DNA of 64,000 nt from Cladorhizidae sp. MBARI D1340-BT2 (Eukaryota > Porifera > Demospongiae > Poecilosclerida > Cladorhizidae): contig JAQNBH010000014.1 in assembly GCA_028752905.1 (NCBI GenBank), positions 21,135,490 through 21,199,489 on the forward strand, given 5' to 3'. The position numbers and the translations under genes are program-made. Positions 16,282-17,010 of the stretch are shown here, piece by piece. Position 1 is the stretch's first letter; the number at the start of each line of letters is the position of its first letter. The notes beneath the pieces were generated by a model, which did no database searches, was not told the origin of the DNA, and saw only the letters and a program-made list of their open reading frames with translations.

Positions 16282-16457
16282 CTGGGTCAACACACACACA
16301 CACATATACGTATATATACATATATACACACTCATGTGTACAGTATACCCACGTACACGTAGACATGCACACACCCGCACTCTTGCAGCACTATCACACA
16401 CATCTACTTATAGAGGTGATGCTAGCATAGTATCTTTTGGCCTTATGGTATTCTTAC
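16282..16457 (-). other. Putative GT-AG intron in element C RT (176 bp)
   Basis: Minus strand: GCCCAG|GTAAGAATACC...GTTGACCCAG|GTGCTC. It contains a (GT)n microsatellite before the acceptor. The length is not a multiple of three. Excision joins LDALIIDEAIAREAQ to VLRNSLSVWWIDY, which then aligns residue for residue with element A (LDAITIDQAANKEAQ then MERRDLSMAWIDF). The equivalent position in A and B has no insertion. Confidence 0.75.
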
Positions 16458-16635
16458 CTGGGCCTCCCGGGCTATGGCTTCATCTATTATTAGCGCATCT
16501 AGACAGCCCCGTCTCCCTTTCTTGAGTGCTTTCTGCTCAGTGGGGAGGATATCATACCTCTGGACATGAGCCCCTAGGACCATGGTCATCGCACTGGTTA
16601 GCCATTTGTAACTACTGTTCAGGCAGGTGATGGGT

Positions 16636-16712
16636 CTGTGGGTCAAAGTTGATAGAAACACCAGCAATTATGTATTTTGATCTGGTTATTGCTTCCTTAG
16701 CGTTTATCCTAC
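16636..16712 (-). other. Putative GT-AG intron in element C RT (77 bp)
   Basis: Minus strand: CAGTACAG|GTAGGATAAAC...TTTGACCCACAG|ACCCATC. Excision gives GQY-R-PITCLN (phase 2, AG|A), matching ERYRPITCLN in A and SQYRPITCLN in B, both uninterrupted. It is not a multiple of three. Confidence 0.75.
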
Positions 16713-16855
16713 CTGTACTGCCCTGGGCCGTTTTCTGCAGCTTCTGTGGGGATTAGTACCGTTCTGCCACTGACTAGCCACCCTGGGATTTCTCTTTCCC
16801 CTCTTAGGCACTCCATCAGTATTCCCTCCAAGATCAAAGCTGTGCATTTCAGGGT

Positions 16856-17010
16856 CTTGAGCGGTGGGTACATATGGGCATGGTGGACTTAAAGAGTCTC
16901 TTGGGGCACGGTTTGGGCACTGCTCCCCTCCTCCCCTCCCCCCTTTCTCGGCACCTTTCCCCCGTTTCCCTGCCACTTTTATCAATCACTTTTTTACTTT
17001 AAAGGCTTAC
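16856..17010 (-). other. Putative GT-AG intron in element C RT (155 bp)
   Basis: Minus strand: GCTCACTGG|GTAAGCC...CCGCTCAAG|ACCCTG. Excision joins DQISAHW to TLKCTALILEGILMECLRG, which runs on in frame to WLVSGRT. The product is about one to two residues shorter than A over the same interval, so the acceptor is less certain than for the other two. Confidence 0.6.

Follow-up and report, generated by a model that had tools for sequence, protein, structure and literature searches.

Conserved candidate spliceosomal introns in an R2-type retrotransposon inserted in the 18S rRNA genes of a sponge

Results and Discussion

Element C and its surroundings

The window examined in this study is a stretch of 64,000 nucleotides (C5:21135490-21199489) from a host genome of 857 Mb, and the rRNA genes identified in it by an Rfam search lie on the minus strand. 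On this strand, the 3' end of an 18S gene is split by an R2-type non-LTR retrotransposon, here called element C (14007..18801, borders approximate). Insertion in 18S had been proposed in a preliminary description made from the sequence alone, and element C is indeed flanked by the 18S body upstream (18802..20567, ending in AAAAGTCG(T)) and by the 18S 3' tail downstream (13960..14006, beginning with AAAATTCGCAACAAGG, end approximate). The coding region, also on the minus strand, consists of four exons separated by three intron-like segments, designated a, b and c. Exon 1 (17011..18085) encodes the N-terminal part up to ISAHW and is followed by intron a (16862..17010; 149 nt, GTAAGC...CCACCG), in which the acceptor AG reads CG. 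Exon 2 (16713..16861) extends from LKTLK to GQY and the first two bases of an R codon, intron b (16636..16712; 77 nt, GTAGGA...CCACAG) is in phase 2, and exon 3 (16458..16635) supplies the last base of R followed by PITCLN...AREAQ. Intron c (16282..16457; 176 nt, GTAAGA...ACCCAG) is in phase 0 and contains a GT/TA microsatellite, while exon 4 (14375..16281) encodes the remaining reverse transcriptase (RT) with YMDD and what look by eye like a CCHC motif and a restriction-like endonuclease region. The window copy of C is dead: apart from the introns, its frame is disrupted by a nonsense codon and four frameshifts (exon 1 has the TAG and two of the frameshifts, and exon 4 the other two, one of these inside a 10-bp tandem repeat near 15580), and it is approximately 150 nt shorter at its 5' end than full-length copies.

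The surrounding DNA is heavily rearranged. Positions 21639-30401 and 42576-51347 form a duplication approximately 97% identical over 8.8 kb, amid broken rDNA and other elements, and tandem units of approximately 3 kb joining 28S pieces to the 5' part of a second element family (family B) occupy 26245-39382. In both family B copies, at 39814 and 51779, the RT is interrupted by a stop at an identical place (..WMIAG*), which suggests that they were duplicated after death. A 608-codon open frame at 52868-54694 on the minus strand resembles, by eye, a piggyBac-type transposase. Elsewhere in the host assembly, COX1 occurs many times and in two types on small contigs (C124-C128, C147, C177), and pieces of COX1 are also found on large, chromosome-sized contigs, including C2:12.31-12.36 Mb. 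Database hits to this COX1 reach 96%, and the closest one with a name is a Demospongiae entry at 92%, in line with a likely sponge host.

Intron borders in the window copy

The preliminary description reported three GT-AG segments of 155, 77 and 176 nt, none divisible by three. All three segments are present on the minus strand, although the border of the 155-nt segment was misplaced. In a protein alignment with 60 database relatives (P0001-P0060 of the 120 relatives listed), nearly all of the 58 rows shown read W-[L/Y/W/F]-K at the corresponding position. Excision of 155 nt would therefore remove L-K codons that are exon in the relatives, and the insert proper measures 149 nt (17010-16862), six bases off the earlier version and ending in CG in the window. 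At this position 16 of 16 other near copies have AG; the CG is thus best read as a mutated acceptor, and among the near copies examined the mutation is confined to the window copy. For b and c, the earlier statement that excision restores the alignment with families A and B was confirmed, the spacing being gap-free against both families as well as against the 60 relatives. By eye, b and c have short direct repeats at their borders (ACAG and CCCAGGT, respectively). In near copies a, b and c terminate similarly (ACCCACAG, ACCCACAG and ACCCAG); an introner-like origin based on these ACCCA..AG ends was considered and dropped, since the likeness fades in far subfamilies.

Distribution of the introns among other copies

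When the genome was searched at the protein level with the C-terminal frame, 106 matches were obtained, with only the best candidates scored. The first fetch comprised 20 stretches, 18 of which cross the intron region, and inserts were found in all 18, including L024, which has lost part of exon 2 together with the acceptor end of intron a. The stretches L019 and L028 do not extend across the introns and were left out of intron counts. After the sample was enlarged with copies from a tandem array and five more far copies, the number of distinct copies available for exons 1 to 4 was 37, 36, 38 and 38, respectively, located on six large contigs (C1, C3, C5, C6, C11 and C14). Wherever copies could be aligned on both sides, the inserts lie at identical codons, their ends are almost always GT/GC-AG, and their lengths vary; no copy with both flanks aligned has an exon-exon join, and the shortest exon-to-exon distances are 132 nt for a, 53 nt for b (corrected for the split codon) and 51 nt for c. 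The preliminary description had proposed a check against second copies, and these do carry the inserts at fixed positions, with variable lengths and with no free variation in position.

In far subfamilies, intron a measures 132-191 nt (four copies), intron b 53-75 nt, and intron c 57-61 nt in six copies (including L025) and 154 nt in L061; intron a was unmeasurable in L059 and L060. Decayed intron sites are isolated, occurring in the window copy (a), L015 (c) and L025 (b), the last having no GT-AG pair for b in an automated table. This table has 40 rows for a, 42 for b and 43 for c, with some copies entered twice owing to overlapping loci, and it misplaces intron a of the window (as 155 nt) and, in L015, L016 and L025, the decayed borders of c. 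Between subfamilies, the mismatch is 0.11-0.24 in the first six intron bases and 0-0.22 in the last three, compared to 0.41-0.45 in the interior. The segments thus show sequence properties expected of U2-type introns, with GT/GC-AG at frame-restoring borders, a fixed position, and a diverging interior and length.

The recurrence of the three sites in other copies is more than chance, and a chance origin of the GT-AG segments was ruled out on this basis. A related explanation is that the segments are ordinary insertions or microsatellite expansions with a fortuitous GT and AG. The GT/TA microsatellite in c and the direct repeats around b and c could be read in this way; however, the fixed codons in copies aligned on both sides, the conserved ends over diverged interiors, and a reading frame that opens only upon exact removal of all three segments (L014, below) leave this explanation with next to no probability.

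It is also important to note that copies are not equivalent to insertions. The region C5:23781900-23862500 (L012, L017, L018, L020 and L038-L055) is a tandem array of 5'-shortened C copies with a period of approximately 4.49 kb. This array contributes 18 of the 38 copies (18 counted by exon 3), with introns in all of them where aligned. In addition, one recombinant 5' border is common to seven copies. Because many copies are DNA duplicates of this kind, the number of independent insertions is much lower than the number of copies.

Selection, open reading frame and phylogeny

Purifying selection acts on the exons between intron-bearing subfamilies. The dN/dS ratio is 0.15-0.20 for L024 and L025 each compared to seven near copies and 0.21 for L024 compared to L025, with dS of at least 1.4 in both cases; comparisons with L019 gave 0.18-0.32. 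At such dS, ratios of 0.15-0.21 indicate that the protein was selected along lineages that already held the introns. In contrast, the ratio between the window copy and its near duplicate L011 is 0.78, as expected for decay. One copy, L014 (C5:19255600-19261200, first 990 bases N), retains a single open frame of 1,098 codons, which exists only after removal of a (184 nt), b (77 nt) and c (178 nt); with one intron kept, the longest frame falls to 766 (a), 709 (b) or 655 (c) codons. The preliminary description had offered two readings, retention of introns through retrotransposition owing to an unspliced template (for example a pol I co-transcript) and entry of introns into a dead copy. The second does not account for the family, since subfamilies at dS of at least 1.4 have the introns in common, with selection between them, and since the L014 frame is open. 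The first is supported, with splicing and the unspliced template as its putative mechanism.

Maximum likelihood analysis of the RT region placed all 15 rows with introns in a single clade (support 100). The input consisted of P0001-P0045 from the 120 relatives listed, and rows had to contain at least 200 residues, which excluded L019. Outside the intron clade lie family A, the L035-type copies and the database relatives, and no insertion was found in family A or the L035-type copies at the three sites where they could be compared. The intron clade lies next to intronless families and its exons are under selection; the introns were thus acquired secondarily, in an element that remained active.

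The introns themselves change at different relative rates near and far. Among near copies (the window copy compared to L012, L013, L014, L016 and L026), intron interiors have diverged by 0.12-0.15 while four-fold sites have diverged by 0.22-0.37. In far copies, the intron and four-fold divergence from the window are 0.88 and 0.86 for L024 and 1.20 and 0.78 for L025. The slow intron change in near copies might reflect RNA constraint or gene conversion. Between subfamilies, however, conversion is unlikely to have occurred recently, since their introns are highly divergent.

Insertion site and 5' end

The insertion point of C in the 18S gene is AAAAGTCG^TAACAAGG. The full-length copies L013, L016, L026 and L027 begin immediately after the 18S AAAAGTCG, and full-length and 5'-shortened copies have a common 18S start site but differing 5' ends. 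The 3' ends of C copies are uniform at the 18S site, and in several copies they continue into AAAAGTCGTAACAAGG, which looks like duplicated target. No clear target site was found in the flanks near four far copies, which are fragmentary. At several loci (L010, L015 and L021-L023), more than one element family occupies a single 18S site, in the order 18S, the end of another element, C, and an additional element, and the borders resemble AAAAGTCG.

Over its first 120 nt, L016 matches the whole of the Rfam HDV ribozyme model RF00094, starting at the junction, although the match is weak (27.2 bits compared to a gathering score of 50; E 0.028 for 221 bases and approximately 0.03 for 221-231 bases); the next-best Rfam match is a second HDV family, and no HDV ribozyme match appeared in a larger Rfam search of 32.7 kb. 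A ribozyme descriptor of our own matched five of seven 5' ends (three of five C-type ends and both ends of other elements), compared to 11-30 per 1000 shuffled sequences. We regard a putative HDV-like ribozyme at the 5' end of C as likely. The 18S position of full-length copies and the weak match in L016 suggest an rRNA co-transcript.

These ends also bear on how the introns could have been maintained. One explanation is that C spread as DNA only: introns or insertions entered a single copy, which unequal crossing-over in the rDNA and segmental duplication then amplified, so that the introns were never reverse-transcribed. Several observations are consistent with such spread, including the 18-copy array on C5, the recombinant 5' border in seven copies, the large duplications inside the window and the dN/dS of 0.78 between the window copy and L011, which resembles that of dead duplicates; degenerate R2 of a stick insect is also thought to multiply in this manner, according to the available part of that report (PMC4370867). 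However, the low dN/dS between subfamilies requires a working protein in intron-holding lineages, the L014 frame is open, and full-length and 5'-shortened copies with different 5' ends have a common 18S start. As an account of the whole family, spread by DNA alone is therefore improbable.

Search for spliced copies

Passage through RNA normally erases introns, and if a spliced template were used frequently, intronless C copies would be expected. A search with a 277-residue spliced RT piece gave 161 matches, with only the best candidates scored. Among the matches listed, those of the C family are interrupted at the intron sites with one exception (L025), while families at most 54% identical continue uninterrupted through these sites. 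The L025 match (69%) crosses the c site with four stops, and the L025 DNA carries intron c. A genome-wide search for the spliced junction of b only (28 bases, up to three mismatches) identified 13 places, each with exactly three mismatches; 12 of these lie within matches of an intronless sister family and one at 107 bases from such a match, and a reversed control pattern gave zero places. Thus, no spliced C copy was found among the listed matches of the protein piece or with the b junction pattern.

There are several potential explanations for the persistence of introns in a reverse-transcribed element. In one of them, the introns are genuine and ancestral but C has just one ordinary transcript, whose splicing is inefficient, with the unspliced fraction serving as template and no separation of polymerases needed. 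Every sequence result fits this equally well, none of them identifying the polymerase, and for a myxomycete rDNA gene the accessible part of one study reports RT-PCR in which spliced and unspliced mRNA are both present (PMC9548176). On the other hand, inefficient splicing should have produced some spliced copies over time and none was seen among the listed matches or with the b junction pattern; we consider this explanation less likely than not.

A further explanation concerns the strand that is copied. Target priming of the R2 type uses the 3' end of the sense RNA, and the 3' ends of C are uniform at the 18S site. Both points argue against an antisense transcript as template, in which the sense introns would go unrecognised; this would preserve the introns too and has been proposed for Penelope-like elements (PMC3846280, available part), but for C it is very improbable.

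A proposed mechanism of intron retention

We consider it probable that spliceosomal introns were gained by an active R2-type element and have been retained since the RNA that is reverse-transcribed is unspliced. The C family would be a target-primed R2-type element of 18S genes with one reading frame, which acquired its three introns before the present subfamilies separated. Judging from the L014 frame, the full-length protein would be made from RNA spliced at all three introns, whereas the RNA copied into new insertions would be unspliced, because the introns occur in every lineage and a spliced copy was not detected. Pol I transcripts mostly escape the spliceosome, and the likeliest template may therefore be an unspliced rRNA co-transcript, with its 5' end cut by the HDV-like ribozyme. 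The spliceable mRNA could come from transcription that is accessible to the spliceosome, for example by pol II on inserted rDNA. Such a source is plausible because pol II-dependent R2 expression has been reported for Drosophila, in germline stem cells whose rDNA copy number is low; in the available part of the article, its authors leave open pol II transcription of the whole inserted R2 copy (PMC11139327). Splicing in the cell, the existence of two RNA pools and the action of the protein in trans are inferred here from the genomic copies.

If the two RNAs are separate, the introns could act as a gate, with the unspliced, ribozyme-cut co-transcript, which lacks a full-length frame, as template and protein made only from spliceable transcription (for example by pol II) and acting in trans. 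We put this forward tentatively, as a possibility with less than an even chance. If true, splicing would license retrotransposition, and a gate role of the introns could account for their slower interior change relative to four-fold sites in near copies. The introns of each new insertion record the template RNA, and a full-length protein requires another RNA; the family thus makes it testable whether the RNA that is translated is the same molecule as the RNA that is reverse-transcribed.

Comparison with known systems

The RT of L014 matches five PDB sequences of solved chains (E 1e-20 to 9e-13), three of which are named R2 and two only reverse transcriptase-like. Pfam identifies RVT_1 alone in L014, and motifs seen by eye in its C-terminus are presumably those of a CCHC finger and a restriction-like endonuclease. 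Like R2 and R8, C is inserted in an rRNA gene; its RT is related to R2 structures, and an HDV-like 5' end is likely. Its position at AAAAGTCG^TAACAAGG in 18S is not the 28S site of R2. R8 of Hydra is likewise inserted in 18S (PMC5035012, available part), and the likeness of C to R8 extends as far as this choice of gene. According to the available part of a review, R2 has a single ORF and its RNA is co-transcribed with rRNA and matured by an HDV-like ribozyme (PMC12203849), compared to the three spliceosomal introns that would interrupt the frame of C. The closest intronless comparison lies in the host itself, where family A of the window and the L035-type copies have an RT lineage common with C and are close to it in the tree, with no inserts where compared. 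A scan of viral contigs with the C-terminal frame found no relative.

Degenerate R2 in the stick insect Bacillus rossius may multiply via unequal recombination (PMC4370867, available part), and part of the C copies, like these dead rDNA copies, have been multiplied as DNA; C differs in that its subfamilies with introns show coding selection between them and one copy is open. In myxomycetes, group I introns of the rDNA harbour homing endonuclease genes that are split by a short spliceosomal intron, which is spliced out in vivo (PMC9548176, available part); like C, these are intron-interrupted protein genes within rDNA. However, they are mobile as DNA, so that intron retention is no puzzle for them, unlike for C, and an Rfam search at gathering scores found no group I intron in the window.

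No intron-bearing non-LTR element was recognised among the open-access papers listed, judged mostly by titles and the openings of abstracts. The nearest parallel is with Penelope-like elements, whose frame retains spliceosomal introns despite mobility, and which, in the available part of a 2013 paper, are described as able to disperse intron-containing genes in contrast to all other retrotransposon types (PMC3846280). Like C, they are retroelements with a reading frame bearing spliceosomal introns; they differ from C in belonging to another RT class and in their GIY-YIG endonuclease, a domain that Pfam did not find in L014 at E 0.001; C is site-specific for 18S. An R2-type element with three conserved introns would be a case separate from the Penelope-like elements, and one that falls in a class with well-studied target-primed chemistry.
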